Part shown: piece after piece, positions 19,723-50,600 of the stretch
Numbering within the stretch: position 1 is the stretch's first letter
How the letters are laid out: each line of letters starts with the position of its first letter
Origin: Chloroflexota bacterium
GTDB taxonomy: Bacteria; Chloroflexota; Anaerolineae; UBA1429
Assembly (NCBI GenBank): GCA_012729455.1
Contig: JAAYDC010000009.1
Coordinates: 1 to 64,000 of the forward strand
Reading direction: 5' to 3'
Length of the DNA: 64,000 nt
Notes under the pieces: generated by a model
Told to the model about the DNA's origin: nothing
Database searches by the model: none
What the model saw: only the letters and a program-made list of their open reading frames with translations
Made by a program: the position numbers and the translations under genes

Positions 19723-21792
19723 ATGCCAAGGTATCGCGATGCCGCCTACGGCGGTGAGACGGTCGTACTCAAAAACGCCCATTTGCGCCTGGAGGTGCAC
19801 AAACGCATCACAGGATGGGGCTGGGGCGAGCTATATGTGCCGGATGGCAGCGGCGGGATGCGCTTTTTCGCGGTGCTCGAGCACCTCGGCGAGCTGAGCG
19901 CAGAAGGCCTGCCGCACGCTTTGCGCTTGGAATCCACCAGCTACACCAGTGAGCGCGAGGGTAACTGTACTCGGCTGCGTTTTGCCGTGCGCACCCAGGA
20001 GGTCGAGCCCTCCGGCAAGCACTTTGGCAACGAGTCGCCCATCGAGGGTGAAGTGGTGCTCTCCCTGGCCGACGACGAACCCTATGTGCGCTACCACATG
20101 CAGGTAACAGCCCAGTTTGGCTTTAAACTCAACTATCTGCGCGGCCCTTGGCTAAGGGTCGGCGCTGATTCGTTTGGCACCGACAAGGTCGATGCGATCT
20201 TCCCGGGAATCGAGTGGCTGCGCGGCGAGGAATGGTCATCCGGCACGGACTGGTTCGCGTATCCTGAGGCACTGCGGGTCACGCCGCATCCGCATAAAGT
20301 GTCCTTCCCGTGTCTGGCGATCTCTCACGGCGGGGTAGGGCTGGGACTGTGTTACCAGCCCGATTCGGTGCAGACCGTCTCGACCAGCGGTTATCCTTCC
20401 AACCTGCTGCGCTATGTGCAGCCGGTGTTTGCCTCGCCCAACTTTGTCGACCGGCGCAACGATCATCTGCTGGGGTTGATGTGGCCGAGTGTGCGCCAGG
20501 GCCTGGCCGAAAACGCCCTCTCTGCGGACGGCATGCCGATCGTCAGCCAGCAGCAGTTGGCTTTTGATGCACAGATTGCGGTGGTAAAGGGTGACAGCCT
20601 GGATGTCATCACCGAGTGGGTGAAAGAAACGGGCATGCCCGAGCCAGGTAAACCGCGCTGGCCCTGGGAAGAGGCCTATCAGCGCATCATCGAGGCCTAC
20701 GACACTCATCTGTGGCTGCCCGGCGAGGGATGGGCCACGGGCTCCTTTTACCGCGGCAAGGGCGATCTGTACGTGCCCGAGTGCGTGCGCGGCTATATCG
20801 ACAAGGGCGCCGATGCCGCCCTGGCGGCGCGCCTGAAGGAAAAGGTAACATGGGTGGAGGGCGAGCTGGCCAAACCCGAGAATGTGCGCGAGCCGGACCT
20901 CAACGGCATGCTGGCACGGCCGGAAGGTGCGATGATCCATCATCCCGAGCTGACCGAGCAGCTGGCCGACCAGCTGGTGGCGCTGCAGACCCCCGAAGGC
21001 GACTTTCCATACGACCCGAATGGCCGCCATACCACCGGGCTGATTTCGAGCGCTGCCTATTGGCGGCCGATCGGCCACGTGGGCGATTCGGCCATCGACC
21101 TGGTGGCAGTGGCCGTGCTGGGCCTGATCGAGGCGCACAAGCGCTTGCGCAAGGATAGCTACCTGACGGCCATCCGCCGAGGGCTCGAGTTTGGTCTGCG
21201 CTTTGATCGCCCCGAGGGCGGAGACTGGTGGGAGACGCCCCTCAACGCCCCCAACCTGCTGGCGGCCGGAAACGCTGCCATAGCCTATTACCTAGGCTAT
21301 GAGCTCTTTGATGAACCGGCTTACAAGGCGCGCGCGGTGCGCTGGATTCGCTCGGTGTTGCCATTCACCTATCTGTGGCAGCCGATCGACCAGCCGATGC
21401 TCTATAATACCAAGCCATGCCTGTGCTCGACAGCCTGGTTCCTGAGCGACTGGGTCAGCAAGTGCGTGCTGTGGGAAGTGCTCCGCGTGTTTGGCGATTC
21501 GTGGCGCCACGGCATCGACTGGGGTCTGGTGGATCCAGAACTTGACTGGCACACCTATCACCGCGGCATCCTCACCGCTGTGCTGCGCTGGATGGTCGAC
21601 CACAAGGATCCGGACTGGGTCTGGCGCAGCGAGTTCAGCGGCGATTGGATCGCCGATGGTTCATGGGATACGTTATGGTCCGACACCTTTGATCCCGTCA
21701 AGGGCTCATATGGCGGGGGACCGATCGGCGGATCGGCGATCGCAGAGGGCATCCACATCCTGATGCAATACGCCTACTCACCGCGCAGTTGA
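19723..21792 (+). CDS. Putative carbohydrate-active enzyme with alpha/alpha-toroid domain
   Basis: A 689-residue cytoplasmic protein whose family I do not recognise. The first ~310 residues are beta-rich (LRLEVHKRITGWGWGELYV, VRYHMQVTAQFGFKL) like the N-terminal sandwich of inverting glycosidases. Residues ~320-680 carry repeating helical pairs such as IDLVAVAVLGLIEAHKRLRKDSYLTAIRRGLEFGLRF and NAAIAYYLGYELFDEPAYKARAVRWIRS, the pattern of an (alpha/alpha)6 toroid. Trp, Tyr, Asp and Glu are abundant in the loops. GGGGGGGTG precedes the ATG. A lyase or glycosidase role is inferred. The glycosyltransferase gene starts 14 bases after its stop. Confidence 0.7.
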   Translation: MPRYRDAAYGGETVVLKNAHLRLEVHKRITGWGWGELYVPDGSGGMRFFAVLEHLGELSAEGLPHALRLESTSYTSEREGNCTRLRFAVRTQEVEPSGKHFGNESPIEGEVVLSLADDEPYVRYHMQVTAQFGFKLNYLRGPWLRVGADSFGTDKVDAIFPGIEWLRGEEWSSGTDWFAYPEALRVTPHPHKVSFPCLAISHGGVGLGLCYQPDSVQTVSTSGYPSNLLRYVQPVFASPNFVDRRNDHLLGLMWPSVRQGLAENALSADGMPIVSQQQLAFDAQIAVVKGDSLDVITEWVKETGMPEPGKPRWPWEEAYQRIIEAYDTHLWLPGEGWATGSFYRGKGDLYVPECVRGYIDKGADAALAARLKEKVTWVEGELAKPENVREPDLNGMLARPEGAMIHHPELTEQLADQLVALQTPEGDFPYDPNGRHTTGLISSAAYWRPIGHVGDSAIDLVAVAVLGLIEAHKRLRKDSYLTAIRRGLEFGLRFDRPEGGDWWETPLNAPNLLAAGNAAIAYYLGYELFDEPAYKARAVRWIRSVLPFTYLWQPIDQPMLYNTKPCLCSTAWFLSDWVSKCVLWEVLRVFGDSWRHGIDWGLVDPELDWHTYHRGILTAVLRWMVDHKDPDWVWRSEFSGDWIADGSWDTLWSDTFDPVKGSYGGGPIGGSAIAEGIHILMQYAYSPRS

Positions 21793-23810: not shown

Positions 23811-24269
23811 AGTGTTTACCTCATTTCATCAAGGCACATTACGCGCATCATAACGCCGCTGTGTGACTTGTCAAAAGTTTGTTTGTGCATTATGATCAGC
23901 ATGCTAAGCACGTTGACAGGCTTTTAAGCTTGTGATAAGATCAGGTTAAGCCAAATGGCTTAGTGAAGATTGTTCGCTGGTGGTACGAAGTGGTACTACA
24001 GACGGGAGAGGATCGCTTGGCCGCCGATGACACGGCAACGGTTAGAAACCGCGCCAAACGCAAGCATACGCTCCAACCGAACAGCAACCCGAAGGCTCCC
24101 AAATGTTTGGGAGTTCGCCGCGTCTTGCAAGCCTCGCACGTTCATTCGCTCGCATAGCCAGTTTGTTTTACAGTAGCTATGAGAGATGTATATAATCTGA
24201 ATCAAGGAGGTCCCCCCGCCAAACGAACCAAGTGTCTGGTCTGTCAAATCTAGTTTTATGGAGGAAGAA
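23811..24269 (+). other. Long leader of importer 1 with two promoters and palindromes
   Basis: About 460 bases without a gene. TTGACA (23913-23918) and TAAGAT (23936-23941) with a 17-bp spacer, and TTTACA (24167-24172) and TATAAT (24191-24196) with an 18-bp spacer, are two promoters. TAAGCC-AAAT-GGCTTA (23947-23962) is a hairpin at the start of the long transcript. CTCCCAAATGTTTGGGAG (24096-24113) is a perfect palindrome with a TG centre and may be an operator. An unpaired strong Shine-Dalgarno sequence AAGGAGGT sits at 24204-24211. Nothing matches a known riboswitch class by eye. Confidence 0.6.
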
Positions 24270-26009
24270 ATGAAGCGATTCAAGTGGTTATGGCTGGTGC
24301 TGGCGATCGCCCTGGTGGTGTCGCCGGTGCTGGTCTCGTGCACGCCGGCGGCAACCGCGGTGCCAGAGGCTACTGCTGCCCCTAAAGAAGAGGCAACTAA
24401 GGCTCCCGATGCTGAACCGACGGCAGAGGAAGTTGTCGAGGTCGAAGTAACCGAGGAAGCTGCCAAGGAACTGGAAGGCACGATTGTGATCAGCTTCCAG
24501 TCGACCGACAAGCAGACCTGGGAAGCTGTGGCTGAGGCGTACGAAAAGCTCAACCCCAAGGTTGATGTACGCGTCGAGCTCAAACCCGGCGAGGGTTATC
24601 AGGAATGGATCCGCGCGCAGTTCGCCACCGGTGCCCCCGAGGCCAGCCTGGTGAACGCCAACGTGGTGGCTGACCTGCTCAACGCCAAAAAGTTCCTTGA
24701 CCTGGCTCCGTATCTGGACAAAATCAGCCCATATACCAACAAGCCGTGGCGCGAGGATATGGACGAGGGCGCGATCCGCAACATGACGGATCCGATCGAA
24801 GGCCGTATCAACGTGTTGAACCTGGAGACCGTACAGGTCCTTTGGTTCTATAACAAAGAGATCTTTGACAAGGTTGGCATCACCGACGTGCCGTCGCAGC
24901 CGACTTGGTCGCAGTTCATTGGCTGGTGCCAGACCCTCAAGGATGCTGGTTACATCCCGTTGGCTATCGAAGGTGACGCAAGAAGCTTCTGGGAAATGCG
25001 TGTTGGCTGGTTGATGCGTATGTACGCCGACCAGTACACCCGTCACGAGGCCGACTTGGTGCGCTGCCAGCCGGGCGACTATTGCTTCCGTGAGGGGATT
25101 GACGACAAGTGGGTGTACGACCCCACCGATCCTCATAACGACGACAACACCTTTATCACGTTCAACGGCGTGCGCCAGATGGCTGCCTTCTACAACGGCG
25201 AGCAGCGTGTTGATTCGCCGCAGTGGAAAGCCATCTATGAGAACCTGGCCCAACTGCTTGGCCCCATGACCGAGCCCGGCTGGATCGGCGTTACGGACGC
25301 CCAGCCGCTCTTCCTGACGCAGCAAGCTGCGATCTGGCTGGACGGCGCCTGGTTCTTTACCAGCTTTGAGAAAAACATCAAGCAGCTGGCCGAGGGCACC
25401 TATGGTGTCACCGAGGGCGAGCCCACCCCGACGCCAATCCCTGGCGCGGCGCAGGCGACCGTCTTTGAACTCGGTACATTTAACAACCCGTCGATGGAAG
25501 GCGAATTGGTAGATGCTCCGGCTCGTACCATCGAGGTCAACATCGGCTTCTGGGGTATCCCCAAGAAGGATCAGGCGCAGAACGACCTCGAAGTTGACTT
25601 TTTGATGTTTGTTACCAGCCCCGAAGGTTACTCGATCTATCTCCAGAACAAGCTGGATCCCGAGAACCTGAACGGCGGTATCTCTGGTCCTCCGATCGTC
25701 AAGAACGTCGACCTGCCCAGCCCGTACAAAGAGCGTTTCGCCAACGTCCAGCTGATCGGTAACACCGAAAAGGCTACCGCTGGCACCTATCGCTCCCGCG
25801 GTCTGAACGACTATCAGCCGATGGTGCGTGAGTGGACTGACCTCGCTCAGCAGTACTTCCAGGGCGAGATCACCATTGACAAGTTCCTGGCGGATTACCA
25901 GGCCTCCCTCACCAACCTGTTCCCGCAGATGGTTACCGACCACCTGCGTTGGCAGGGTGGGCTGGACGCCTTGAAGACGCCCGAAAAGAAACCCGAAGTT
26001 ATCGAGTAA
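24270..26009 (+). CDS. Importer 1 solute-binding lipoprotein A
   Basis: A 579-residue family 1 extracellular solute-binding protein, longer than the usual ~430. The lipobox L-V-S-C gives Cys24; residues 25-75 are an E/A/P/T-rich tether. The binding domain starts GTIVISFQSTDKQTWEAVAEAYEKLNP. DDKWVYDPTDPHNDD and GDARSFWEMRVGWLMRMYADQY form an extra insertion relative to shorter relatives. The final repeat of W/Y/F residues (DHLRWQGGLDAL) is typical. GGAGGAAG precedes ATG 24270; the ATG at 24258 is part of that site. The gene is followed by a perfect hairpin and then the permeases. It is closely similar to the protein encoded at 29243-30979. Confidence 0.93.
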   Translation: MKRFKWLWLVLAIALVVSPVLVSCTPAATAVPEATAAPKEEATKAPDAEPTAEEVVEVEVTEEAAKELEGTIVISFQSTDKQTWEAVAEAYEKLNPKVDVRVELKPGEGYQEWIRAQFATGAPEASLVNANVVADLLNAKKFLDLAPYLDKISPYTNKPWREDMDEGAIRNMTDPIEGRINVLNLETVQVLWFYNKEIFDKVGITDVPSQPTWSQFIGWCQTLKDAGYIPLAIEGDARSFWEMRVGWLMRMYADQYTRHEADLVRCQPGDYCFREGIDDKWVYDPTDPHNDDNTFITFNGVRQMAAFYNGEQRVDSPQWKAIYENLAQLLGPMTEPGWIGVTDAQPLFLTQQAAIWLDGAWFFTSFEKNIKQLAEGTYGVTEGEPTPTPIPGAAQATVFELGTFNNPSMEGELVDAPARTIEVNIGFWGIPKKDQAQNDLEVDFLMFVTSPEGYSIYLQNKLDPENLNGGISGPPIVKNVDLPSPYKERFANVQLIGNTEKATAGTYRSRGLNDYQPMVREWTDLAQQYFQGEITIDKFLADYQASLTNLFPQMVTDHLRWQGGLDALKTPEKKPEVIE

Positions 26010-26020
26010 CGAGTTATACG

Positions 26021-26050
26021 ATCGTCCGGAGCCATAAGGCTCCGGACGAT
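26021..26050 (+). terminator. Hairpin between binding protein and permeases
   Basis: ATCGTCCGGAGCC (26021-26033) pairs perfectly with GGCTCCGGACGAT (26038-26050) around an ATAA loop. The tail TTATCTATT is a weak U-tract. It probably acts as a partial terminator or mRNA-stabilising hairpin, giving more binding protein than permease. Confidence 0.75.
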
Positions 26051-26078
26051 TTATCTATTGAAGTAAGGGAGCTATGCG

Positions 26079-28091
26079 ATGCATCCAAAGACCCTGAAGC
26101 TAGGCAGCAAGCTGCTGGTGGTGCTGGTCAGTGCCGCTCTTGTACTCTTGTTGGTACTCCCCGTTGCAGCAGCCGGCCCCCTGGGTTGGACCCACGAGGC
26201 GAGCGATACGATCTTTACCATCTCGGGTTCAGCGGATGGCACGCGGGTCGTAGTTGGCTCGCGCGATAACGTGGTTACAGTGTATGACGAGGCCGGTAAC
26301 GAACTGTGGAACTTTACCGCAGGGAACTCGGTGACTGGGGTTGCCATGTCGGCCGACGGACAGTTTGTCGCGGTCGTCAGTATGGACCGCAACGCGCGAC
26401 TCTTTGACGCCGAAGGCAACATGCTGTGGGAATACCGTGCCAGCTTTCCCCTTTCGGCCACAGCCATTAGCGATGATGGCAGCTATGTGTCGGTAGCCTC
26501 GGTCGAAGGCCGCCATCTTCTCTTGATTGATAAAGAAGGCAAGCTCGTTTGGGATAAAAACTTGTCGGTGCCCATCGAGTCTACCGCTATGTATGGCACG
26601 GGCGAGAAAACCAGGGTGTTAGCCGGCACGCGTGACTCCAAGGTCTTTTTGTTCAATCTGGCTGGCGACGAGCTCTTTCGCAAGCAGCTTGACGATGTGG
26701 TCAATGGCATCAGCGTCAACCGCAGCGGTGCGACGATTGTTGCCGGTCTGGATGACGGCCGTGTGATTGCCATCAACGGCGGTAATGCTCAGGTCAAGTG
26801 GGAATATAACGCACGCGGCAGCCAGCTGGAGCGTATTCGCTCCGTCTCGATCAGTGCTGATGGCCAAGTGGTGGTCGCCGGCGTCTCTAACGGCGATGTG
26901 CTGGTGTTGACGGGTGATGGTACCCTCAAGCAGACTATCAAGAACGCCGGAGACGACACCAAAGCCGCTTACATCTCGCGCAACGGCGAGGTGCTCATGT
27001 ATGGCGGCAGCCTCAAAACCATGCACGTATCCAACCTTGCCGACCAGGCGGCAGCCGCTACCCAGAAACAGCAGACCTCGACAGTGCTTATCGTCGTTGC
27101 AGTTGTGATCGTGGTAGTGCTGCTGGTGGGAGGATACCTCGCAGTGCGCTACACCCCGTGGGGCGCCAAGCTCTGGCATACTACCAGCCAGCCAGCACGC
27201 CATCTGATCCGCGAAATATGGCGCGCCAAGACCTCTTATCTCTTTTTGGTGCCGACCTTTGCCCTGCTGGCGATTTTTAATTATTATCCGGCGTTTTCTG
27301 GGCTGTGGCACGGTTTTACGCGTTGGACGCCCGGTTTGCGCGCCCAATGGGTCGGTTTGGACAACTATATCGCAGCCTTCAAGAACCCTTATTTGCGCGT
27401 CGGCATTGGCAATGCTGTTATTCTGATCATCACCGGCTATTTAAAGCTGCTCATGCCGTTGACCGTAGCGGAGTTGATCTTTAACCTGCGTTCGGCCAAG
27501 CTGCAGTATTTCCTGCGCACGGCTTATGTGATCCCGCTGATTGTGCCGGGCGTAGTGGGCATCCTGATGTGGGTCAACATCTACGACCCGAACTATGGTC
27601 TGCTCAACAAGACGCTCGAGGCTTTGGGATTGGAGAGCTGGATCCGCGTCTGGTTGGGTGACCCGGAAATTGCGCTGCGTTCTATCATCTTTATGGGCTT
27701 TCCGTGGATCGGTGCCTTTCCGCTCCTGTTGTTCTATGGCGGGTTGATCACCATACCGACCGACCTGTTCGACGCCGCCAAAGTGGATGGCGCGAACTTT
27801 TGGCAGCGCTTTATCCACATCGACCTGCCGCTTTTGATGTCGCCGATCCGCACCCTGGTGATCCTCGGGTTTATCGGTGGTGTGCAGTCGTTCGAAAGCG
27901 TGTTTTTAACCACCATGGGCGGACCAGGGCATGTCACCTATGTGCCTGCCTTGGAGCTCTATTTCCAGGCGACCACCTTTAACCGCATGGGGATGGCATC
28001 GGCTATCGGTACTCTGCTCTTTATCGTGATTATGGCCGGCACGATCTTTAACCTGCGCTATGTGCGCGGTTCGACGGAATACCAGGCGTAA
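26079..28091 (+). CDS. Beta-propeller fused to ABC sugar permease
   Basis: A 670-residue fusion. Residues 11-31 are a signal/anchor helix. Residues ~34-325 form a seven-bladed WD40/PQQ-like propeller with repeats such as VVTVYDEAGNELWNF, NARLFDAEGNMLWEY, HLLLIDKEGKLVWDK, KVFLFNLAGDELF and RVIAINGGNAQVKWEY; the opening LGWTHEA strand would close the ring. A second helix (~336-358) returns to the cytoplasm, and residues ~385-670 are a MalF/UgpA-type permease with the EAA loop DLFDAAKVDGANFWQRFIHIDLPL near 560-585. The topology places the propeller outside, next to the binding proteins. Ordinary permeases of this family are about 300 residues. ATG 26079 follows AAGGGAG. The partner permease starts 9 bases after its stop. 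Confidence 0.9.
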   Translation: MHPKTLKLGSKLLVVLVSAALVLLLVLPVAAAGPLGWTHEASDTIFTISGSADGTRVVVGSRDNVVTVYDEAGNELWNFTAGNSVTGVAMSADGQFVAVVSMDRNARLFDAEGNMLWEYRASFPLSATAISDDGSYVSVASVEGRHLLLIDKEGKLVWDKNLSVPIESTAMYGTGEKTRVLAGTRDSKVFLFNLAGDELFRKQLDDVVNGISVNRSGATIVAGLDDGRVIAINGGNAQVKWEYNARGSQLERIRSVSISADGQVVVAGVSNGDVLVLTGDGTLKQTIKNAGDDTKAAYISRNGEVLMYGGSLKTMHVSNLADQAAAATQKQQTSTVLIVVAVVIVVVLLVGGYLAVRYTPWGAKLWHTTSQPARHLIREIWRAKTSYLFLVPTFALLAIFNYYPAFSGLWHGFTRWTPGLRAQWVGLDNYIAAFKNPYLRVGIGNAVILIITGYLKLLMPLTVAELIFNLRSAKLQYFLRTAYVIPLIVPGVVGILMWVNIYDPNYGLLNKTLEALGLESWIRVWLGDPEIALRSIIFMGFPWIGAFPLLLFYGGLITIPTDLFDAAKVDGANFWQRFIHIDLPLLMSPIRTLVILGFIGGVQSFESVFLTTMGGPGHVTYVPALELYFQATTFNRMGMASAIGTLLFIVIMAGTIFNLRYVRGSTEYQA

Positions 28092-28100
28092 GGAGGGATC

Positions 28101-28976
28101 ATGACAGAAGGTGTTTCACGCGCTGGGACGACGACGATCCGTTCAAGCAAAGTGCAGATCAAGCGAGCCATCGGGCAGGGGGTAATCCTGCTGGTGCTGG
28201 CAATCCTGCTGGCGCTCACCATGGTGCCGATCGTCAACATGCTGACAATGTCGCTCAAGGATAACGGCCAGATCTTCGCACGTTTTTGGGCAGCCCCCAA
28301 TCCCTACCGCTGGCGCAACTATGCAAAAGCCTGGGAGGTCATGCGCGGATACATTGCCAATTCGCTGTTGGTTTCGATAAGCGCCATGTTTGGGGTGGTT
28401 TTCCTGGCCTCGATATCGGGCTATGTCTTTGCGCGGCATCGCTTCCCGGGAAAGAACTTTTTATACCTGCTGATTTTGGCGCTGATGATGATCCCGGGCA
28501 TGCTCACGCTGATCCCGTCGTTCATGCTGATCAACGATTTGGGCCTCATCGATACGCGCTGGGCGCTGATCCTGCCGTGGATCTCGGGCGGCCAGGTGTT
28601 TGGTATCCTGATCTGCCGCGGATTTTTCGGCGGTTTGCCCGAGGAGCTCTTTGAGGCGGCGCGCATGGACGGCGCACGCGAGTTTGGGCTCTACTGGAAG
28701 ATCGCGGTGCCATTATCGTGGCCGATCATGGTCACCCTGGCGATCATGAACCTGGTGGGTACCTATAACGACTTTTTGTGGCCGCTCCTGGTGCTGACAA
28801 GCACCAGCAAGCAGGTGGTCTCGGTAGGCTTGCGCGAGTTTAACCAATCGGGTATGACCGACTGGGGACCCCGCATGGCGGCTTATACGATTGCCACTGT
28901 CCCGTTGTTGCTGCTGTTTGCCTTTGGTATGCGCTATTATATCCAGGGTATTACCTCGGGCGCTATCAAAGCCTAG
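28101..28976 (+). CDS. ABC sugar permease (MalG/UgpE type) of importer 1
   Basis: A 291-residue inner-membrane permease with six helices. The cytoplasmic EAA loop ELFEAARMDGAREFGLYWKIAVPLSWP couples to the ATPase. SGYVFARHRFPGKNFLY and MIPGMLTLIPSFMLINDLGLIDT are typical of the MalG branch. AAGGAGG precedes the ATG. It is the partner of the propeller-fused permease. No ATP-binding subunit is encoded nearby, so an MsmK/UgpC-type shared ATPase encoded elsewhere is inferred. Confidence 0.95.
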   Translation: MTEGVSRAGTTTIRSSKVQIKRAIGQGVILLVLAILLALTMVPIVNMLTMSLKDNGQIFARFWAAPNPYRWRNYAKAWEVMRGYIANSLLVSISAMFGVVFLASISGYVFARHRFPGKNFLYLLILALMMIPGMLTLIPSFMLINDLGLIDTRWALILPWISGGQVFGILICRGFFGGLPEELFEAARMDGAREFGLYWKIAVPLSWPIMVTLAIMNLVGTYNDFLWPLLVLTSTSKQVVSVGLREFNQSGMTDWGPRMAAYTIATVPLLLLFAFGMRYYIQGITSGAIKA

Positions 28977-28994: not shown

Positions 28995-29030
28995 AACCCA
29001 GTGCGCTGTTCAAGGTGCACTGGGTTTTTT
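28995..29030 (+). terminator. Intrinsic terminator after importer 1 permeases
   Basis: AACCCAGTGC (28995-29004) pairs with GCACTGGGTT (29017-29026), a 10-bp stem followed by TTTT. It ends the permease transcript before the second binding-protein gene. Confidence 0.9.
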
Positions 29031-29242: not shown

Positions 29243-30979
29243 ATGAAACGGATCAAATGGTTATGGATTCTACTGGTCGTTGCCCTGGTAATATCGCCGA
29301 TGCTGGTCTCATGCAAGCCAACGGCAACCGCTGTACCGGAGGCTACTGCTGCCCCTAAAGAAGAGGCAACCAAGGCCCCCGATGCAGAACCGACTGAAGA
29401 AGAAGTTGTCGAAGTCGAAGTAACCGAGGAAGCTGCCAAGGAACTGGAAGGCACGATTGTGATCAGCTTCCAGTCGACCGACAAGCAAACCTGGGAAGCT
29501 GTGGCTGCGGCGTATGAAAAGCTCAACCCTAAGGTTGATGTGCGCGTCGAGCTCAAACCCGGTGAAGGCTATCAGGAGTGGATCCGCGCACAGTTTGCGA
29601 CGGGCAGCCCTGAGGCTAGTTTAGTCAACGCCAACGTGGTAGCCGACCTGATCAATGCCCGCAAATTCCTCGACCTAGCCCCGTATATGGACAAGATCAG
29701 CCCCTATACCAATAAACCATGGCGCGAAGACATGGAAGAGGGTGCAATCCGCAACATGACCGACCCTATAGAGGGGCGCATCGAGGTGTTGAACATTGAG
29801 ACCGTGCAGGTGCTGTGGTTTTATAACAAAGAGATCTTTGACAAGGTAGGGATCACGGATGTCCCGACCCAGCCCACCTGGTCGCAGTTTATCGGCTGGT
29901 GCCAAAAGATCAAAGATGCTGGGTACATCCCGGTAGCGATCGAGGGTGACGCAAGAAGCTTCTGGGAGATGCGCGTCGGCTGGATGATGCGCATGTACGC
30001 TGACCAGTACACCCGCAAGGAATCCGAACTGGTGCGCTGCCAGCCGGGTGACTATTGCTTCCGTGAGGGGATTGACGACAAGTGGGTGTACGACCCGACC
30101 GATCCTCACAACGACGATAGTAACATGATCACCTTTAACGGCGTACGCAAGATGGCGGCTTTTTACAATGGTGAACAGCGCGTCGACGGACCCGAGTTCA
30201 AGGCGATGTACGAAAACCTCGCCCAGCTACTGGGGCCGATGACCGAGCCTGGCTGGATCGGCGTGACGGACGCACTGCCGCTCTTTCTAACCCAACAGGC
30301 AGCCATGTGGCTGGATGGCGGCTGGTTCTTTACCAGCTTTGAGAAAAACATCAAGCAGTTGGCTGAGGGTACCTATGGAGTGACGGAAGGTGAAGCTACC
30401 CCCACTCCGGTGGCCGGTGCCGCTCAGGCGACCGTCTTTGAGCTGGGCACCTTTAACATCCCTTCGATGGAAGGCGAGCTGGTAGACGCACCGGCGCGCA
30501 CTATGGAAGGATACCTGGGCTTCTGGGGTATCCCGAAAAAGGACCAGGCGCAGAACGACCTGGAAGTGGATTTCCTCATGTTTGTAACCAGCCCGGAAGG
30601 GTTTGCCATCTATGTGCAGAACAAACTGGATCCTAATAACCTCAACGGCGGAATCTCTGGTCCGCCGGCGATCCTGAATGTCGAACTGCCAAGCCCCTAC
30701 AAGGAACGCTTCGCCAACATCAAGCTGATTGGCGCGGCCGACCAGGGCCCCGGCGGCTACCGTTCGCGCGGGCTCAACGACTATCAGCCGATGGTGCGCG
30801 AGTGGACCGACCTGGCGCAGCAGTATTTCCAGGGGACGATCACGATCGACGAGTTTCTGACCAAGTATCAGGCATCGCTGGAGAACCTCTTTCCACAGAT
30901 GGTCACCGACCACCTGCGCTGGCAGGGGGGCTTGGACGCTCTGAAGACGCCCGAAAAGAAACCCGAAGTTCTCGAGTAA
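29243..30979 (+). CDS. Importer 1 solute-binding lipoprotein B
   Basis: A 578-residue paralogue of the protein at 24270-26009. It has the same length, the same lipobox (Cys24), the same acidic tether and the same ending DHLRWQGGLDALKTPEKKPEV. Differences are scattered conservative changes (for example YLDKISPYT versus YMDKISPYT, and TIEVNIGFWG versus TMEGYLGFWG). It lies downstream of the permeases behind its own leader and terminator, so it is an independent unit. It probably serves the same permeases with a related or overlapping ligand range; this is inferred. Confidence 0.93.
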   Translation: MKRIKWLWILLVVALVISPMLVSCKPTATAVPEATAAPKEEATKAPDAEPTEEEVVEVEVTEEAAKELEGTIVISFQSTDKQTWEAVAAAYEKLNPKVDVRVELKPGEGYQEWIRAQFATGSPEASLVNANVVADLINARKFLDLAPYMDKISPYTNKPWREDMEEGAIRNMTDPIEGRIEVLNIETVQVLWFYNKEIFDKVGITDVPTQPTWSQFIGWCQKIKDAGYIPVAIEGDARSFWEMRVGWMMRMYADQYTRKESELVRCQPGDYCFREGIDDKWVYDPTDPHNDDSNMITFNGVRKMAAFYNGEQRVDGPEFKAMYENLAQLLGPMTEPGWIGVTDALPLFLTQQAAMWLDGGWFFTSFEKNIKQLAEGTYGVTEGEATPTPVAGAAQATVFELGTFNIPSMEGELVDAPARTMEGYLGFWGIPKKDQAQNDLEVDFLMFVTSPEGFAIYVQNKLDPNNLNGGISGPPAILNVELPSPYKERFANIKLIGAADQGPGGYRSRGLNDYQPMVREWTDLAQQYFQGTITIDEFLTKYQASLENLFPQMVTDHLRWQGGLDALKTPEKKPEVLE

Positions 30980-32202: not shown

Positions 32203-34383
32203 TCAAGCCTTCGCGCGCGCCGCGCTCAGGATGCCTTCCACCAGGCTGCCGGGTTGTTCAGCCTCGGCGAGGGTCAGCCCGGCGATAGCCAAGGGCAGGC
32301 TCCAGATGGCTTGCGGGTCGTTATAGTCGTGGCCATGGCCGATCCAGCCATCGTGGGCGTTTATATTGCAAGGCCAGCCCCACGGCATGGCGTTCGCCTG
32401 GTGGAAGAGCGTCCCAAGCACATCCTGGACGGCGGCGAGCCCCTCGGCTTTGGCAGCGCCGAGAAACTGGCAGGTGGCGGCATAGATAAAGTTAACCATC
32501 GGCCAGACATCGCGCGCAAAATCACACACGATCCCCTGGTTCGAGTAAACCGGTGCGCCATCGGCTGTCACGGCCAGCACAAGGCCATAAGGCGATTTAC
32601 CGCTGCACAACTCGGCCACGGCCTGCAGGGCACTGGCAGCCTGCTCGGGCGGCAACAGGCGCTCGAGCCCATACAGCGCAGCAGCCCATTCGCCCGTCAG
32701 CTGGGCACTCAGGCAGGTGCTGTCGGAGATACCATCGGCATCCAGCTGCAGGTTGAACCAACGGCCGTTCCACAGCTCCTGCGCACGCGCCTGCCCGCGC
32801 GCCAGGCGTGCCCGCCAATGCTCGGCGTTGTGAGCGTTCCCCTGGCGCTCGGCCATTGCCGCCAGCGCCGCAGCCGCGGAAAGGCTCTTGAGGCCGGTGT
32901 AGACCGAGGTGCCGTGCTGGGGCCACAGATCCCACGGCACGTTGGCTGGCCAGAATTCGCCCGGCAGTGCATGCGGGTGCTCTTCGACCATACCGTCGCC
33001 GTTATTATCCAGGAACTCAACATAACGACCGGCAGCCAGCACCGAAGGGTAGAATTCGCGCAGGAATTCCTCGTCGCCAGTGCGCAGGTAATAGCGGTAG
33101 ACCAGCTCGATATACTCGTTAATGCCGTTGGTGTGCTGGGTCTGGTAATTGGGAGCACGCGCGCCAAAACCCCTGTCCAGGCTAAAGGGGATCTCACCGC
33201 TGGCGAGTTGGTAATGCCGGTAGGCTTCCAGAGTGGTGCGTTCCAGCTCGGGGAAAAAGAAGAGGGTCGGCAGGCTGCCGAGGTAGTGACAGGGCAGTGT
33301 CTCGGAAAGCGGACAGGTGGTGTAACTCTCGTTGAGCAGGAACAGACCGTCGTCGCCGAACCAGTCGTCCGGGCGGGAGCGCGTAATCCAGTGGCTGTTC
33401 TTGCAGGTGGCGTAGAACGAGTTGACCAGCGCCTCGCGCAGCTCGGGCGAAAGCTCGTCACGCGCATAGATGGCGCTCTGCCAGGCGATGATGCGCTCCA
33501 GCCAGCTGGTGTGCCCGGCGATGGCGGCAGTGAGGACTGTTTTGGCATCGACAAAGCGGTCGGCATAGCGCAGGCGTTCGGCGCGGTTCCAGCTATCACG
33601 CAATGAGGGCTGGTACCAGACCAGGATGATCGTCTCCTCGCTGGCCTCATCCGCCGCTAGCTCGATGCTCAGCTCGCTTTGCAGCTGCGCACCGCAGCTT
33701 GAGACGCTGCCGTGGCGCGCTGCCAAGGCCAGCTCGTGTTCAAGCGCCTGCGCGCCCATGCGCGGGTTGGCCTGCGCCCAGATGTGGCGCTGACTTGAAC
33801 CCTGCCAGCCCTCGGCAAGCTCTAGCGTTTGGGTGTCTGTCACCGCTTTGGGGGGCTCGGGAGCATCGTAACGCAGCGTGCAGCGGTGCGGATGGGTATC
33901 CAGGTTGGTGAGCGTCACCTGGTAGACGATAGCTGGTGTGTTGGAGGTAACGGCATCCCCCGGGATAAACGGGCCATAGGCGCGTATCTCGATGCGTATC
34001 GGCGCCTCGATCTGCATGCTCAGATCCAGCAGCGGAAAGTGCCCAAAGTAGCGCAAATCGGTCAGATCGCCGCTGCCATCATCGCCGCGAACGGCCAGCG
34101 CAAAAGTACGCCCGTCCACATCCAGGCTAAAGGGGATTGTGCCGAGTACCGGCAAGGCGCTGATGTTGGGCAGCTGGTTAAAGAGGGTGCATTGGCTGTT
34201 GCGGCCATCCGTATCCCAGCACAAAAAGCCTGTACCGAGCCCGCCCAGTGGCACGCCATGCCAGCGCAGCGAGCTGCGCGGATAGACGGTACCGAAGACG
34301 GGCTGCTGGTATCCGCGGCAGCGAAACTGCTGGGTGCGGTTACGGTTGGCAAAGGCCTCGAAAAGGGCTGTAGAGTTTGACAT
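32203..34383 (-). CDS. GH116-family beta-glycosidase
   Basis: A 726-residue intracellular glycoside hydrolase of the GH116/DUF608 family (bile-acid beta-glucosidase, GBA2-like). The N-terminal domain has RWHGVPLGGLGTGFLCWDTDGR, the family's GVPLGGIG signature. NESYTTCP aligns with the nucleophile segment (Glu about 352), and DNNGDGMVEE...PWDLWPQHG with the acid/base segment (Asp about 485). No signal peptide is present. ATG 34383 was chosen because the upstream frame extension runs into the divergent permease promoter. It would hydrolyse beta-linked glucose, xylose or N-acetylglucosamine from glycans brought in by the adjacent importers. Confidence 0.85.
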   Translation of the reverse strand: MSNSTALFEAFANRNRTQQFRCRGYQQPVFGTVYPRSSLRWHGVPLGGLGTGFLCWDTDGRNSQCTLFNQLPNISALPVLGTIPFSLDVDGRTFALAVRGDDGSGDLTDLRYFGHFPLLDLSMQIEAPIRIEIRAYGPFIPGDAVTSNTPAIVYQVTLTNLDTHPHRCTLRYDAPEPPKAVTDTQTLELAEGWQGSSQRHIWAQANPRMGAQALEHELALAARHGSVSSCGAQLQSELSIELAADEASEETIILVWYQPSLRDSWNRAERLRYADRFVDAKTVLTAAIAGHTSWLERIIAWQSAIYARDELSPELREALVNSFYATCKNSHWITRSRPDDWFGDDGLFLLNESYTTCPLSETLPCHYLGSLPTLFFFPELERTTLEAYRHYQLASGEIPFSLDRGFGARAPNYQTQHTNGINEYIELVYRYYLRTGDEEFLREFYPSVLAAGRYVEFLDNNGDGMVEEHPHALPGEFWPANVPWDLWPQHGTSVYTGLKSLSAAAALAAMAERQGNAHNAEHWRARLARGQARAQELWNGRWFNLQLDADGISDSTCLSAQLTGEWAAALYGLERLLPPEQAASALQAVAELCSGKSPYGLVLAVTADGAPVYSNQGIVCDFARDVWPMVNFIYAATCQFLGAAKAEGLAAVQDVLGTLFHQANAMPWGWPCNINAHDGWIGHGHDYNDPQAIWSLPLAIAGLTLAEAEQPGSLVEGILSAARAKA

Positions 34384-34440
34384 GGCTGGCTCGCTTTGAA
34401 TGTTTAGCAAAATCTTAACAGATAATCGGGGTTGGCGCCA

Positions 34441-34469
34441 TTGTCTTGGCTTCGCAGATGTGATAGAGT
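34441..34469 (+). promoter_or_regulatory. Promoter of importer 2
   Basis: TTGTCT (34441-34446) and TAGAGT (34464-34469) are 17 bp apart, about 40 bases before the first permease ATG. It is moderately close to consensus. Confidence 0.5.
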
Positions 34470-34511
34470 GATTGTGATAAGAACTAGCCCTCACCATTGG
34501 AGAGCTGCCAG

Positions 34512-35522
34512 ATGGCCTTGAAAGTGCGTGCGGATCGCTGGTTCGGTAGGCTGCGGTCATTTCGCGAGTTGTCGACCGTGCGTCAACGTCGCCGCCTGAA
34601 CACCCTGCTCCTCGGCTATGGCCTGCTGGCACCGGCAGTGATCCTGCTAATTGTATTTGAGTTTTACCCCCTTTTCTCGGGGTTTTGGATCAGCCTGACT
34701 AACTGGCGCCTGGCCAAAGGTGATTATATCGGCTTTGCCAACTATGCGCGCGCCCTGTCGGACCCGGGCTTTTGGAAAGCGCTGGGCATCACCTTTACCT
34801 ACTCTATTATCTCAGTGCCTCTGCAGCTGGGCATCGCGCTCCTGCTGGCATATCTATTGTTCCAAAAGATCCACGCCATGAGCTTTTTTCGCATGCTCTA
34901 CTTTATGCCGTATGTGACATCAACGGTAGCCTCTGCGGCGATCTGGGCCTACCTGTTCAGCCCCGATATTGGACCGATCAACCGCCTGCTCCAGAGCATG
35001 GGCCTGGAGGGCTTGCGCTGGCTTTCTGAGACGCGCGGCATCTTTCAGATCATGGCGGCGCGCGTTGGGGTGGACCTGCCGGCTGCTCTGGCGGGGCCCA
35101 GCCTGGCGCTGATCTCACTGATCATTTATACCACCTGGGTTTTTGTGGGCTACGACACGGTGCTGTTTTTATCGGGATTATCGAACATCCCGGCTGAGCT
35201 TTACGACGCCGCCAAGGTCGATGGCGCCTCGGGCTGGAAGCTCTTTCGCCACATCACCTTTCCGTTATTATCGCCCACCACCTTTTTTGTGGTGCTGATC
35301 ACGATCATTGGCACGTTCAAGGCCTTTAACCACATTTATATCATGACACGCGGCGGACCCGGAGATGCCACCACCACCGCCAGCATCTATATCTTTAACC
35401 AAATGGTGACGTATAATCGCTACGGTTACAGTGCGGCGCTCTCCTTTCTGACGTTTATGGTAATATTGCTGCTTACCATCCTGCAGAACAAGATTGCCGG
35501 CAACAGGGTGGTCTATGATTAA
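34512..35522 (+). CDS. ABC sugar permease 1 (MalF/UgpA type) of importer 2
   Basis: A 336-residue permease without the propeller extension seen in importer 1. After a basic cytoplasmic N-terminus, helices begin at LLLGYGLLAPAVILLIVFEF. FFRMLYFMPYVTSTVASAAIWAYLF and the EAA loop ELYDAAKVDGASGWKLFRHITFPLL are standard. GGAGA precedes ATG 34512. Its 3' end overlaps the second permease by 8 bases, so the two are co-translated. Confidence 0.94.
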   Translation: MALKVRADRWFGRLRSFRELSTVRQRRRLNTLLLGYGLLAPAVILLIVFEFYPLFSGFWISLTNWRLAKGDYIGFANYARALSDPGFWKALGITFTYSIISVPLQLGIALLLAYLLFQKIHAMSFFRMLYFMPYVTSTVASAAIWAYLFSPDIGPINRLLQSMGLEGLRWLSETRGIFQIMAARVGVDLPAALAGPSLALISLIIYTTWVFVGYDTVLFLSGLSNIPAELYDAAKVDGASGWKLFRHITFPLLSPTTFFVVLITIIGTFKAFNHIYIMTRGGPGDATTTASIYIFNQMVTYNRYGYSAALSFLTFMVILLLTILQNKIAGNRVVYD

Positions 35523-36390
35523 GACACCCCGCATCCGTCTGGGGCGCCTGCTGATCTATCTTGTGCTGATCATCGGCGCGCTGATCTCGGTGCTGCCCTT
35601 TGTCTATATGATCACCTCGGCGCTCAAGAGTTATGGGGCGATCCTCACCAACCAGTTTTGGCCCTGGTGGCCGTTTGGCGACGAGCCGTTGCAGTGGCAG
35701 AACTATGCCCAGGCGATCAACGACATCGGCTTTGATCATACCTGGGGTATCCCGCTTTTTTACCGCTATCTGCTCAACAGCCTGATCGTCACCGGACTGA
35801 CGGTAGCGGGGACGCTCCTGATCTCGATCATGGCGGCTTATGCCCTGGCACTCATGGATCTGCCCGGCAAGAACGCCATCTTTATGCTCTTTTTAGCCAC
35901 CCTGATGATCCCCGGCGACCTGACGTTGGTGCCCAAAGTGGTGATGGTGTTTCGTCTGGGATGGTATAACACTTATGCGGCGCTGGTTGTGCCGTGGCTG
36001 GTGAGCGTTTTCGGCGTGTTTTTGCTGCGCCAGTTCTTTATGCAGGTCCCCAAAGACCTGTACGACGCCGCCCAGATCGATGGCGCGGGGCACATCCGCT
36101 TCATGTTTTCGATCGTCGTGCCGATCAGCCGCCCGGCGATCATCACTGTAGCGCTGCTCAACTTTATCTGGAGCTGGGATAACTTTCGCTGGCCGCTGCT
36201 GGTCACGCGGGATGCCAATATGCGCGTGCTGGCGGTGGGTATGCAGCAGTTTATGGCTGGTGAAGGCGGCACGCAGGTCCATCTGATGATGGCGTTTGCC
36301 AGCATGGTGGTGGTGCCGGTGCTGATTTTCTACTTTATCACACAAAGATACTTTACTGAAGGTATTGCCCGGACGGGCATCAAGGGTTAG
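35515..36390 (+). CDS. ABC sugar permease 2 (MalG/UgpE type) of importer 2
   Basis: A 291-residue permease with six helices and the EAA loop DLYDAAQIDGAGHIRFMFSIVVPISRP. ISIMAAYALALMDLPGKNAIFMLFLATLMIPGDLTLVPK is characteristic. ATG 35515 overlaps the end of the first permease gene. It heterodimerises with that protein. No ATPase gene is present. Confidence 0.94.
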   Translation: MIKTPRIRLGRLLIYLVLIIGALISVLPFVYMITSALKSYGAILTNQFWPWWPFGDEPLQWQNYAQAINDIGFDHTWGIPLFYRYLLNSLIVTGLTVAGTLLISIMAAYALALMDLPGKNAIFMLFLATLMIPGDLTLVPKVVMVFRLGWYNTYAALVVPWLVSVFGVFLLRQFFMQVPKDLYDAAQIDGAGHIRFMFSIVVPISRPAIITVALLNFIWSWDNFRWPLLVTRDANMRVLAVGMQQFMAGEGGTQVHLMMAFASMVVVPVLIFYFITQRYFTEGIARTGIKG

Positions 36391-36457
36391 TGCGGGTTTT
36401 AGAGGGCAACACATATCCGCCCCAAACCATATCAGATCATTCAACAGGAGGAATGAG

Positions 36458-37834
36458 ATGCAATTGCGAACCTTACCCCGTGTGCTGGTGCTGTTGCTGG
36501 TGCTGGCGCTCGCGCTGACGGCCTGTCAGCCGACTGCCCCCAAGGGCCCGGATGCCGAAGGCGGATCAGAGATCGATGCCATCGACCTGACGGGCAAGAA
36601 TATCGAAGTGGTGCTGTGGCACAACCGCTCGCAGTCGGATCAGGACCTGCTGCAGGAAATGCTGGACGAGTTCAACGCCAGCAACCCCTACGGCATCACA
36701 GCCCGCGCCGAGATCGGCGGTGCCAGCTATAACGACGTCTACAACAAGATCAACGCGGCTATCCAGGGCGGCACCCCGCCCAACATCGCGGTGGCTTATC
36801 AGAACCAGGCCGCGTTGTACCGCTCGCAGGATGCCGTGATCGACCTGACGCCCTATATCAACAGCACCAAATATGGGCTGAGCGCTGAAGACAGGGCCGA
36901 CTACTTTCAGGCTTTTCTGGATAGCGACGCCAACCCGCAGTTCCAGGGCGAAGTGCTGGGCTTTCCGACGCAGCGCTCGCTGGAAGTGATGTACTATAAC
37001 CAGGACTGGCTGACTGAGCTCGGTTACGACGCCCCGCCAACCACCTGGGAAGAGTTTGAAGAGATCGCCTGCAAGGCTGCTCAGGAGGATGATAAAGCCG
37101 GCTGGGCGCTCCTGCATGAGGCCTCGAACTTTGCCTCGCAGGTATTTGCGCGCGGCGGTCGCATCCTGTCGGAAGACGGCACCAGATACGTCTTTAACGA
37201 GCAGGCCGGCCAGGACGCCCTGGCAATGATCCAGCGCATGGCTGCCAACAAGTGCCTGGTCGAGATCCCCGTCTCCGAGCGCTATGGCGAGCAGAATCGC
37301 TTTGCCAATGGCGACATCCTGTTCGTGTTTGCCTCGTCGTCGGGCATGAACTATTACGCCGACGCCGTGGCCAAGGCTGGCGGCTTTAAGTGGGCCGTGG
37401 CGCCTCTGCCGCAGAGCGGCGAGCTGCATATGAACCTGTACGGCGCCAGCATGTCGGTGTTCAAGACCACCCCCGAGCAGCAACTGGCCTCCTGGCTGGT
37501 GATCAAGTTCCTGGGTGAGAAAGAACAGACCACGCGTTGGGCGGCCAAGACTGGCTACCTGCCGGTGCGTGCCAGTGCCAAAGACGACGTGATCGCGGCC
37601 CTCAAAGCCAACGAAAAGTGGGCTTCGGCGGCCGATAGCTATGCCATGCTCTTTGACTGGGCGAATGCCGGAATGGTTGAATCGCCGGTGGCCGGTTACG
37701 ACGGCGTGCGTGCGCTGATCGATACCGACCTGATCTCCAAGGTGATCAACGACCCGAATGCTGATGTCAAGGCCCTGCTGGATGCCGCGGTTGTAAAGGC
37801 CGATGAGATCCTGAAGGAAAATGCTCCGCAGTAA
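36458..37834 (+). CDS. Importer 2 solute-binding lipoprotein
   Basis: A 458-residue UgpB-like binding protein. The lipobox L-T-A-C gives Cys23. VVLWHNRSQSDQDLLQEMLDEFNASNPYGI is the first strand and helix, followed by AIQGGTPPNIAVAYQNQAALY, QRSLEVMYYNQDWLTELGYDAPPTTWEEFEEIA and WLVIKFLGEKEQTTRWAAKTGYLPVR, all family landmarks. CAGGAGGAA precedes the ATG. It ends at a strong bidirectional terminator. Ligand is inferred to be an oligosaccharide or glycerophosphodiester; the adjacent mannosidase favours the former. Confidence 0.95.
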   Translation: MQLRTLPRVLVLLLVLALALTACQPTAPKGPDAEGGSEIDAIDLTGKNIEVVLWHNRSQSDQDLLQEMLDEFNASNPYGITARAEIGGASYNDVYNKINAAIQGGTPPNIAVAYQNQAALYRSQDAVIDLTPYINSTKYGLSAEDRADYFQAFLDSDANPQFQGEVLGFPTQRSLEVMYYNQDWLTELGYDAPPTTWEEFEEIACKAAQEDDKAGWALLHEASNFASQVFARGGRILSEDGTRYVFNEQAGQDALAMIQRMAANKCLVEIPVSERYGEQNRFANGDILFVFASSSGMNYYADAVAKAGGFKWAVAPLPQSGELHMNLYGASMSVFKTTPEQQLASWLVIKFLGEKEQTTRWAAKTGYLPVRASAKDDVIAALKANEKWASAADSYAMLFDWANAGMVESPVAGYDGVRALIDTDLISKVINDPNADVKALLDAAVVKADEILKENAPQ

Positions 37835-47362: not shown

Positions 47363-47661
47363 CATCAACACAGAACGGTGTGGATTGCGCCGCTTTAGCG
47401 ATTCTGACTATGACGCGGTCAAGCGCCTGAGCGACGACTATCGGCAGGATCCCAGCTATGGCGATGATCACCCTGGCCAGTGTACTGCTGAACCATACCA
47501 TGTCGGTGCGCGATGCCCGGCGCATCGTCAGAGGCACGGGAGAGGGCAATGCCCGCTGCACCCGCATGGACCGGCGCTTGACACCGTGTACCGCTGCCAA
47601 GTAGACTAGCCAAGACAAAAGCGGCGTATAACGCGCCCAACGCTTGTGGAAGCAGGTGTGT
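47363..47661. other. Gene debris at the left edge of the defence region
   Basis: About 300 bases without an intact gene. A frame near 47385-47460 reads CGLRRFSDSDYDAVKRLSDDY, which resembles the opening of a GNAT acetyltransferase, but it decays after ~25 residues. This is consistent with a gene broken when the following genes were inserted; the match is tentative. Confidence 0.35.
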
Positions 47662-50600
47662 ATGTCATTGAACCTTGAGCAGGGCGTCTGCGGTTTACTG
47701 AAGGCGATGGCGCGGGGCAATTACGATGCCATGCTCACCCTCTTTTGCCGCGAGCTGAGCTATCCGTGGGCCAATACCCCTGTCTCAACGCGTCATTGGC
47801 CCAAGGCGGCCGTCGATGTCCTGCAAGATGAACCCAAGCTGGTGGCGGCAACCCAGGCTGACGGCAAAACCGGTTTCTGTATCGTGCATGCCCGGCTGGC
47901 ACCAGGGAGCCAGTCGTCGCCGCTCTCGCTGGCGGCTGAACGGCAGGTTGTCAATCAGCTCTTGGGCGACTATCCCTTTGGCCTCTATCTCTTTTCCACG
48001 GCCAGTGATACTCACTGGCACCTGGTCAATGTGCGCTTGGAGCTCGAGTCAGAAGCCTCAGACGCTGACAAGCGGCCTGCCAGGCGCCGTACACTGCGCC
48101 GCATCGCGCTGGGCCCGCACGAGCGCCTGCGTACCGCAACCGAGCGAGTGGCCATGCTCGATCTGGCCAGCATCGGCGACCCTGACCAGGTATCGCCTCT
48201 GGCCGTACAGCAGCGGCACGATGAGGCGTTCGATGTCGAGCAGGTCACCAAGCAGTTCTATGAAGAATATGTGACCGTGTTCCGCCAGCTCGAGGACGAG
48301 CTCCAGACACAGACGGGCGATCGTACCTGGGCCCACGACTATGCTCTGCAGTTTCACAACCGGCTCATGTTCCTCTGCTATGTGCAGCGCAAGGGCTGGC
48401 TAGGCGACGATCCCGAGTTTCTGACCAAGCTCTGGCAGGCTTATCAAGACACGTCGCAACCGGCTGATACTTTTGTAGAACGATGGCTGCAGGTGCTCTT
48501 TTTCGAGGCCTTTAACCATGGCTTTCAGGCTGGCCGCGCCGACCGCTCCTATCTTCCCGAAGAGATCCGCAACGCTCTGCAGGTTGCGCCCTGGCTGAAT
48601 GGCGGTCTGTTCGAGCGCAACGAGCTGGATAGACAGTATGCTTTCAAGGTGACCGATCAGGCCTTTGAGCACAGTCTCAAGCTGCTGAATCACTACAATT
48701 TCACCGTGGCCGAGGACACGCCGCTCGACCAGGAGGTGGCCGTCGATCCTGAGATGCTCGGCCGGGTCTATGAGAGTCTGGTGAACGTCAGCGATACGGA
48801 CGATGAACGGGGGCAAGCAGGCATCTTTTACACGCCCCGCGTCGAGATCGACCTGATGTGTCGGCTGGCGCTGATCGACTGGCTCTGCAACCACCTCGGC
48901 CGCGAGCGGTTTGAACTGGTCAGCGAGCTGGTCTTTGCCCTGGAGCCCGACGAGCAGGCACAGGCCGATAAGCGCATCTCGAACGAAAACCTCTGGCCCG
49001 ATATCCACCGCTTGCTGCAAAGTGTCACCGTGTGCGACCCGGCCTGCGGCTCGGGCTCGTTTCTGGTGGGCGCGCTCAACGTGCTCGACGATCTGCTGGC
49101 CCGCGCGCAGAGGCAGGTGGGCCAGCTCGAGCGCCCCTATGACCGCAAAAAACGCATCGTCGAGCGCAGCCTCTATGGTGTCGATGTAAAAGGCTGGGCC
49201 GTGCGGGTGGCCGAGCTGCGGCTCTGGCTGCAGCTGCTCATCGACACCGAAATCGACGTGAACGAGCTGCGCGTTCAGCCGGTGCTGCCCAACCTCAGCT
49301 TCAAGGTGCGGGTGGGCGACAGCCTGGTGCAGCGCATCGGGAACGTCGATATGGCCCACCTTGGCCGTGGCAGGCTATCAGTACCCCTCAAGGGGCGCAT
49401 TACCCGCCTTAAAGCGGCGAAATCCGGTTATTTTTACAACCAGCCCGATGCTATTCTCAACACCCCAGCCAAGCTGCAGCACGAAGAGCTGAGCATCTTT
49501 CGCACCATCATTGATGAAGAGCTGATCCGCATCGACGCCCGCCTGATAGAGCTGCGCCAGAGCCTGACGTCTCAGGCCACCTTCGATGGCATGGCCCCGG
49601 CCGCTGGTACACCCGAAAAGAGACAGATCGAGGCTCAGCAGGCCGAACTGGAAGCGCATCGCACGCAGTTGGCCGCCGCCCGCAACAGCCTGAAGCAGGC
49701 CCAGGATGTGCCCTTTGTGTGGGATATCGCCTTTGTCGAGGTGTTTTCAGGTGAGCGGCAGGGCTTTGATCTGGTGCTGGGCAACCCGCCCTATGTGCGC
49801 CAGGAGAGCATCCGCAACCCGCTGTCTGCCCGCGATGAGGCTGCCGAAAGAGCAGCTGTCGCCGCTTACAAGGCCGCGCTGGCCGATGCGGTCTATGCCC
49901 GCTGGCCCAAGACCTTTGGCGATGGGAGCGGCAAGCAGACGTTCAAGCTCGATGGCCGCAGCGACCTCTACATCTACTTTTATCTGGTGGGGCTGAGCCT
50001 GCTCAACCGGCAGGGCGCCTTTTGCTTTGTCACCTCGAACGCCTGGCTCGACGTGGGCTATGGCGCTGCCCTGCAGCGTTTTTTACTGACCCGCGGGCTG
50101 GTCAGGCTGGTGATCGACAACCAGATCAGGCGCTCGTTCAAAGAGGCCGATGTCAATACTGTCATCACCCTGCTGGGGCCGGCGGTGGATGACCGCCGTG
50201 ACCGTGCTGCCAGCCTTGACCACGTGGCACGCTTTGTGATGTTCACTGTGCCCTACGAGCAGGGCCTCTCGGCGGTGCTGTGGCAAGAGGTTGGCGAGGC
50301 CCAAGAGCGCCTTGCCAGGCCCGAGTTTCGCGTGCACCCGCTGATGCAGCGCGACGCGCTGGCGGCCGGCAGCGACCAGGCCAGCCTCTATGCCGGCGAC
50401 AAGTGGGGCGGAAAATACCTGCGGGCTCCCGATATCTACTGGGAGATTCTGCGCCGGGCTGGCGACAGGCTGGTGCGCCTGGGCGATGTAGCCGATGTGC
50501 GGCGCGGTATCACGACTGGAGCGAATGAGTTCTTCCAGATAGATGCCCAACAAGCAGATACATGGGGAATAGAAGCCGAGTTCTTGGTTCCGTTCCTGTT

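Follow-up and report, generated by a model that had tools for sequence, protein, structure and literature searches.

The window, by which we mean the whole 64,000-nucleotide stretch of Chloroflexota DNA that was analysed, carries on its plus strand a sugar ABC importer operon in which one permease gene (26079-28091) encodes a propeller domain ahead of the permease itself. The operon is preceded by a promoter-like site, TTTACA-18-TATAAT, at 24167-24196 (11 of 12 matches, from a consensus scan only), and opens with SBP1 (24258-26009), a large lipid-anchored substrate-binding protein of 583 aa with the lipobox LVSC and a Pfam SBP_bac_1 match of 1.2e-18, whose place upstream of the fusion is kept across the loci read. 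In the gap between these two genes, a hairpin scan and the sequence itself reveal a 14-bp hairpin without a T run (26020-26051), which possibly sets a high ratio of binding protein to permease, and the fusion gene has the ribosome-binding site AAGGGAG at about 26066-26071. Downstream lies a partner permease of the MalG/UgpE type (28101-28976; 291 aa; Pfam BPD_transp_1, 2.1e-19; NCBIfam GlcU/UgpE/MalG), and 3′ of it a consensus scan places a terminator-like hairpin with a T run (28995-29026). Behind this hairpin lies SBP2 (29243-30979), a second binding protein recognized by Pfam and by its 88% identity to SBP1, of which it is a duplicate; its gene is probably a separate transcription unit. All of these features are on the plus strand. 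Elsewhere in the window, a 689-residue protein encoded upstream of the operon (19723-21792) has no Pfam match, and 47644-54929 resembles a defence locus, of the restriction type or another, with two long genes that encode an Eco57I/MmeI-like methylase of 1212 aa and a PLD-SNF2 helicase of 1110 aa.

The fusion gene is one open frame of 670 codons without interruption, from an ATG at 26079 to a stop at 28089-28091, and Pfam and NCBIfam divide its 670-aa product into a propeller of the PQQ/WD40 type followed by a permease of the MalF/UgpA type. Residues 30-330 match both PQQ_2 (66.6 bits against a cut-off of 27.6) and WD40 (46 bits, cut-off 27), residues 469-652 match BPD_transp_1 (44.9 bits, cut-off 26.4), and the top NCBIfam matches of the C-terminal half are UgpA and MalF. 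A first-pass annotation of this DNA had described such a protein in one uninterrupted frame, and had named beforehand a frameshift or assembly error, or a cytoplasmic propeller, as grounds for abandoning that description; both were examined, and we found an intact frame and, as set out below, a propeller predicted on the outside. The frame is not a sequencing accident, because full-length homologues are found in a second genome of the family, in the class and in other phyla. That an assembly artefact, a frameshift or a chance fusion might explain the protein is a negligible prospect, given that the identical architecture recurs across dozens of independently assembled genomes, closed chromosomes and isolates included; with homologues in so many assemblies this explanation was ruled out, and the propeller-permease fusion is a real, intact protein. 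An internal start giving a propeller-less permease was also rejected, since no suitable ATG, that is, none in frame with a ribosome-binding site, was seen at the junction (27020-27260), as was a read-through stop in the Paenibacillus copies, since in the one copy checked (L126) the TAG is an ordinary gene end followed by MalG.

Structure prediction, which the first-pass annotation had proposed, gave a propeller at residues 37-319 (26187-27035) with a pLDDT of about 95. In this AlphaFold2 model, built on an 18-sequence alignment, the domain comprises 28 strands in seven blades of four, exactly seven where about seven had been estimated, and strand 37-40 closes blade 7 (296-319) in a velcro closure. 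Foldseek searches with the propeller returned 7-bladed WD40 structures with target TM-scores of up to 0.91; the propellers of 7big, 7bie and PkwA (5yzv) have the same fold and blade number (TM-scores of 0.88-0.91) but, unlike the fusion, no membrane transporter attached. A second model, of the Paenibacillus sacheonensis homologue that is 34% identical to the window protein, again contains 28 strands in seven blades, and in it blade 7 is joined by two helices, the N-terminal anchor (18-45) and the stalk (329-367). The permease half has a pLDDT mostly of 35-65 in both models, from which the placement of the propeller relative to the core should not be read. On the Pfam scores and the seven velcro-closed blades of the models, the domain is assigned to the WD40/PQQ-type 7-bladed propellers.

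Within that fold, a PQQ-dependent dehydrogenase model is matched weakly in NCBIfam (18.9 bits against a cut-off of 480). The blades are 11-39% identical to one another, with a mean of 0.23, and a recent local repeat expansion was rejected because these identities are so low. Membership of BamB was rejected on the seven blades and on an NCBIfam score of 64.1 bits against a cut-off of 285.2, and membership of the AztD-like chaperones on the seven blades of the model, where eight would be needed; a zinc-ligand pattern was not found, since 0 of the 45 most conserved propeller positions are predominantly His or Cys. The BamB match, as a fold-level resemblance at 64 bits, could nevertheless be taken to mean that the propeller serves assembly or stability, as a folding or envelope-spacing scaffold with no direct role in transport. 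BamB, however, is 8-bladed and works in outer-membrane assembly, whereas the fusion model has seven blades and most of its holders belong to monoderm lineages. With a score far under the cut-off of 285, and with blades that are mutually diverged (the mean identity of 0.23) and conserved by position, unlike those of a plain spacer, a mere scaffold appears quite improbable.

Hydropathy analysis of the fusion protein gave eight hydrophobic segments. The first, at residues 12-32 (26112-26174), has a basic N-flank and an AxA-like end and coincides with a modelled helix at 6-26; as in the first-pass annotation, it is predicted to be a signal peptide or anchor. In the near relatives an AxA motif terminates this segment, which may be cleaved off as a signal peptide, while in Paenibacillus and the distant fused group described below it mostly looks like a retained anchor. 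At the far end of the propeller, the final strand of blade 7 itself (314-319) continues in the model straight into a long helix at 320-358 (27036-27152), which model and hydropathy together describe as a stalk and an extra transmembrane helix with a hydrophobic core at 336-354, in line with the return helix noted earlier. A cytoplasmic linker helix follows at residues 360-384 (27156-27230), modelled as a helix at 360-382 and containing basic residues. Basic residues lie on the inner side of the first segment, and several K/R residues follow the transmembrane helix at 336-354; the propeller is therefore predicted to lie outside the membrane, and its earlier placement as extracytoplasmic gains support from this distribution. 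In effect, it is mounted on an N-terminal transmembrane hairpin ahead of a six-helix permease core. From the models and standard propeller geometry, the chain would enter and exit at the bottom face, and since both ends would thus lie by the membrane, the top face would be directed away from it. The connector (residues 320-384) is 65 residues long in 33 of 35 near relatives and is at the same time the least conserved part of the protein (score 0.40 over 22 non-redundant near relatives), a constancy of length despite variable sequence that one would expect if spacing from the core is important.

The permease core occupies residues 385-670 (27231-28088; Pfam BPD_transp_1, NCBIfam UgpA/MalF). It includes at residues 562-586 (27762-27836) the EAA loop DLFDAAKVDGANFWQRFIHIDLPLL, recognized from the sequence and from invariant alignment positions as the predicted ATPase-coupling segment, in which the EAA-x3-G ... 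I-x-LP pattern is present as DAAKVDG...IDLP (residues 565-584); a full MalF-type permease with its EAA loop, as first described, is thus borne out. With this domain and loop, a MalG partner and a binding protein in the operon, and a MalK-type ATPase available elsewhere in the genome, the fusion protein is a CUT1 / MalF-type binding-protein-dependent permease. It is not MalF proper, as it scores 76.6 bits against the cut-off of 392 of the NCBIfam MalF equivalog and has no P2 domain, the core containing no P2-size loop after core TM1. By Pfam, there is also no substrate-binding domain within the fusion protein, whose SBP is encoded separately.

Ordinary permeases of the family had been said to have no such domain, and this holds for all 45 plain relatives that we compared; the window's own genome has four other MalF-type relatives, all of them plain. 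The fusion itself also occurs in other genomes. Another genome of the family contains a 72% identical full-length orthologue together with a second, more distant copy, and a survey of the class found a near-full-length match in 25 of 396 genomes, the window's genome counted. A single-sequence scan of the genome collection gave no match, whereas an alignment-based scan of GTDB genomes found holders: many Caldilineaceae and Anaerolineae, two Thermomicrobiales, three Paenibacillus isolates and one Spirochaetes MAG. The homologues in the Thermomicrobiales, the Paenibacillus isolates and the Spirochaetes genome are full-length, those of Paenibacillus with 34-38% identity to the window protein, and 27 of 297 Paenibacillaceae genomes gave a match at 1e-85, every one in an open frame of at least 590 residues and, in the matches fetched, with the propeller present; cultured holders include Paenibacillus nasutitermitis, P. 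psychroresistens and P. sacheonensis. A broader phylum sample searched at 1e-70 yielded no fusion outside the window's own genome, and the plasmid records yielded no match over most of the protein, only permease-half matches being present among those listed. In a distant fused subgroup, drawn from Chloroflexota, one Paenibacillus and a Spirochaetes genome (L065 5704-7728, L066 6171-8162, L067 5653-7815 and L113 2790-4766), the propeller has diverged and the N-terminal anchor is retained.

Across 112 distinct permease cores, the number of residues before the core is bimodal, at about 336-462 with the propeller (leaving aside two contigs cut at their ends) and nearly always below 80 without it. 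In a tree of 108 permease cores, from which the propeller columns were excluded, one gain or loss separates the 63 fused from the 45 plain sequences, a number as low as this being reached in 0 of 500 shuffles. The branch that separates fused from plain has weak support (28/1), and at the base of the well-supported clade (98/98) stand two plain sequences; a single origin is neither rejected nor proven by these sequences. On sequence comparison, the fusion is an old one, common to Chloroflexota, Thermomicrobiota and Paenibacillus relatives. The open-access literature that we searched yielded no description of a sugar ABC permease bearing a propeller.

The gene order SBP - fusion - MalG is retained in the complete loci read, and the fused operons draw their SBPs, SBP1 included, from a single coherent family of large proteins, whose mature length is about 517-573 in those with a plausible lipobox; the SBP of a plain operon in the nearest genome (L054) has a mature length of 432. 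This co-conservation of SBP and fusion may be mere shared operon inheritance. The first-pass annotation had envisaged the docking of two binding proteins. SBP2 is absent beside the orthologous operon of L054, and serving two binding proteins is therefore not a conserved role; the docking of one is the part of that proposal that we favour, as argued below. No ABC ATPase gene was found beside 61 long fused loci, save an exporter gene on one contig (present twice). The window's genome has one MalK-type ATPase (OB_MalK) above the cut-off, encoded outside the operon at G000:C29, and this ATPase would serve the fusion importer; from established knowledge, the arrangement fits the use of a shared MsmX-like ATPase by the fused importers.

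Five kilobases downstream of the operon lies a second sugar importer operon without a propeller (34497-37834; two permeases and an SBP_bac_8 binding protein), and the two importer operons are adjoined by GH116 and GH38 glycoside hydrolase genes on the minus strand (32203-34632 and 39121-41766). Other fused operons are adjoined by Caldilineaceae oxidoreductases and xylose-isomerase-like genes, by an alpha-L-rhamnosidase in the case of one Paenibacillus fusion, and by a sulfatase and a GH141-like gene. Propellers frequently bind glycans, and this, with the GH116, GH38, rhamnosidase, sulfatase and GH141-like neighbours, could suggest that the domain concentrates a polysaccharide or long oligosaccharide at the importer by binding it, as a built-in carbohydrate-binding module would. 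The neighbouring enzymes, however, vary between fused loci, and therefore no single substrate or glycan can be named. Because the importer already has an SBP of its own, and because the conserved top-face residues described next are charged or polar, not aromatic, we consider glycan capture rather unlikely.

Conservation was scored over 22 non-redundant near relatives, a small number. The mean score of the propeller (0.47) is lower than that of the permease core (0.60). In a ranking of loop positions that set aside Gly, Asp, Pro and Asn as blade-shaping residues, the most conserved positions were those of the top-face BC loops, at R62 and in E102-D103-R104, with R62 present in 21, E102 in 20 and R104 in all 22 of the near relatives, and N64, beside them, in 19; the window protein itself has Met at position 102. 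Of the Paenibacillus sequences 15 of 16 have R104, against just 3 of 8 in the distant fused group. The conserved top-face loops belong to blades 1-4, and their conservation is a hint of a functional top face. A charged and conserved face, carried on a connector of fixed length, might also serve regulation or tethering: the propeller would bind an external ligand or protein and open or block the permease, or would hold a surface hydrolase that feeds it, and the occurrence of fused and plain importers in the same genome, which implies that the domain is not required for transport as such, agrees with a role of this kind. Since no partner gene other than the SBP and MalG is conserved beside the fused operons in the loci read, we regard such a role as improbable.

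Comparison with known systems helps to frame the remaining interpretation. E. coli MalF, in MalFGK2E, shares with the fusion protein a CUT1 core containing the EAA loop and a total of eight hydrophobic segments; both proteins also pair with a MalG partner, and in both importers the MalF-side subunit bears a large extracytoplasmic domain. In MalF that domain, P2, consists of about 180 residues between TM3 and TM4 (PMC2246101) and is in direct contact with MalE (PMC3150292). P2 is not a propeller, whereas the fusion has as its outside domain a propeller of seven blades, placed between hydrophobic segments one and two, and the fusion operon, in contrast to the MalFGK2E system, is without malK; with P2 between TM3 and TM4 and the propeller before the core, the positions of these domains differ. 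The closest described oddity is MalG1/MalG2 of the Thermotogales, a sugar permease with a large N-terminal domain, but on MalG, not MalF: a hydrophilic N-terminal region of roughly 500 residues, of unknown function, lies between TM1 and TM2 and reportedly has no similarity to any known protein (PMC2246101). AztD is an extracytoplasmic propeller tied to an ABC importer with a binding protein, as in the fusion, and delivers zinc to the AztABC importer's own binding protein (PMC6689063); unlike the fusion propeller it is free and 8-bladed, has two zinc sites and handles zinc, not sugar. In OpuA and GlnPQ an extra extracytoplasmic domain is covalently joined to the permease, as here, but it is the substrate-binding domain, while the binding protein of the fusion importer is a separate lipoprotein.

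Tentatively, and at somewhat less than an even chance, we favour the reading that the propeller is a built-in docking platform for the large lipid-anchored SBP, doing the job of MalF P2 from another position. The fusion protein would be the MalF-side subunit of a CUT1-type importer, with the propeller inserted in an N-terminal transmembrane hairpin and lying outside the membrane. Its top face, with the conserved loops of blades 1-4 turned outward, would contact SBP1, encoded directly upstream, and would keep it at the MalFG core or orient it onto the core, much as P2 holds MalE. Transport of the sugar would then use the ordinary core, with energy from an ATPase of the MalK/MsmX type whose gene lies elsewhere in the genome. 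The idea has precedents, since MalF P2 contacts MalE and AztD acts on the binding protein of its own importer. It is favoured by a fusion that is intact across phyla with one gain or loss on the core-only tree, by a propeller modelled with high confidence both in the window protein and in its 34% identical Paenibacillus homologue, by the kept SBP - fusion - MalG order with one family of large SBPs, by the fixed connector length and conserved top-face BC loops, and by the lack of an ABC ATPase beside the fused loci when one MalK-type ATPase is encoded elsewhere in the genome. It is weakened by the poorer retention of the top-face residues in the distant fused group (R104 in 3 of 8), and by the position of the propeller before core TM1, where MalF P2 sits between core TM1 and TM2. 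The fusion, the fold model, the predicted membrane side, the lineage and the operon order are what the analysis establishes; the orientation of the top face, the contact with SBP1 and a benefit to transport are inferred.

In type I importers, a mobile binding protein must reach the permease and stay long enough for the sugar to be transferred, and how this delivery works without a periplasm, in monoderm bacteria, has been little studied. In broader terms, the chances seem to us evenly balanced that these proteins define a sugar ABC importer lineage of their own, whose permease bears an outward propeller as a permanent receptor for a lipid-anchored SBP or for polysaccharide. If so, capture or docking would be built into the membrane subunit, and the encounter of SBP and permease would have a third arrangement, beside MalF P2 and fused binding domains. 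A whole lineage has fixed a protein-interaction fold onto its permease at one place, and the cultured holders would allow this to be tested by deletion of a single domain. The fusion also gives reason to re-examine other sugar permeases whose large outside domains lack an explanation, among them the MalG proteins of the Thermotogales.
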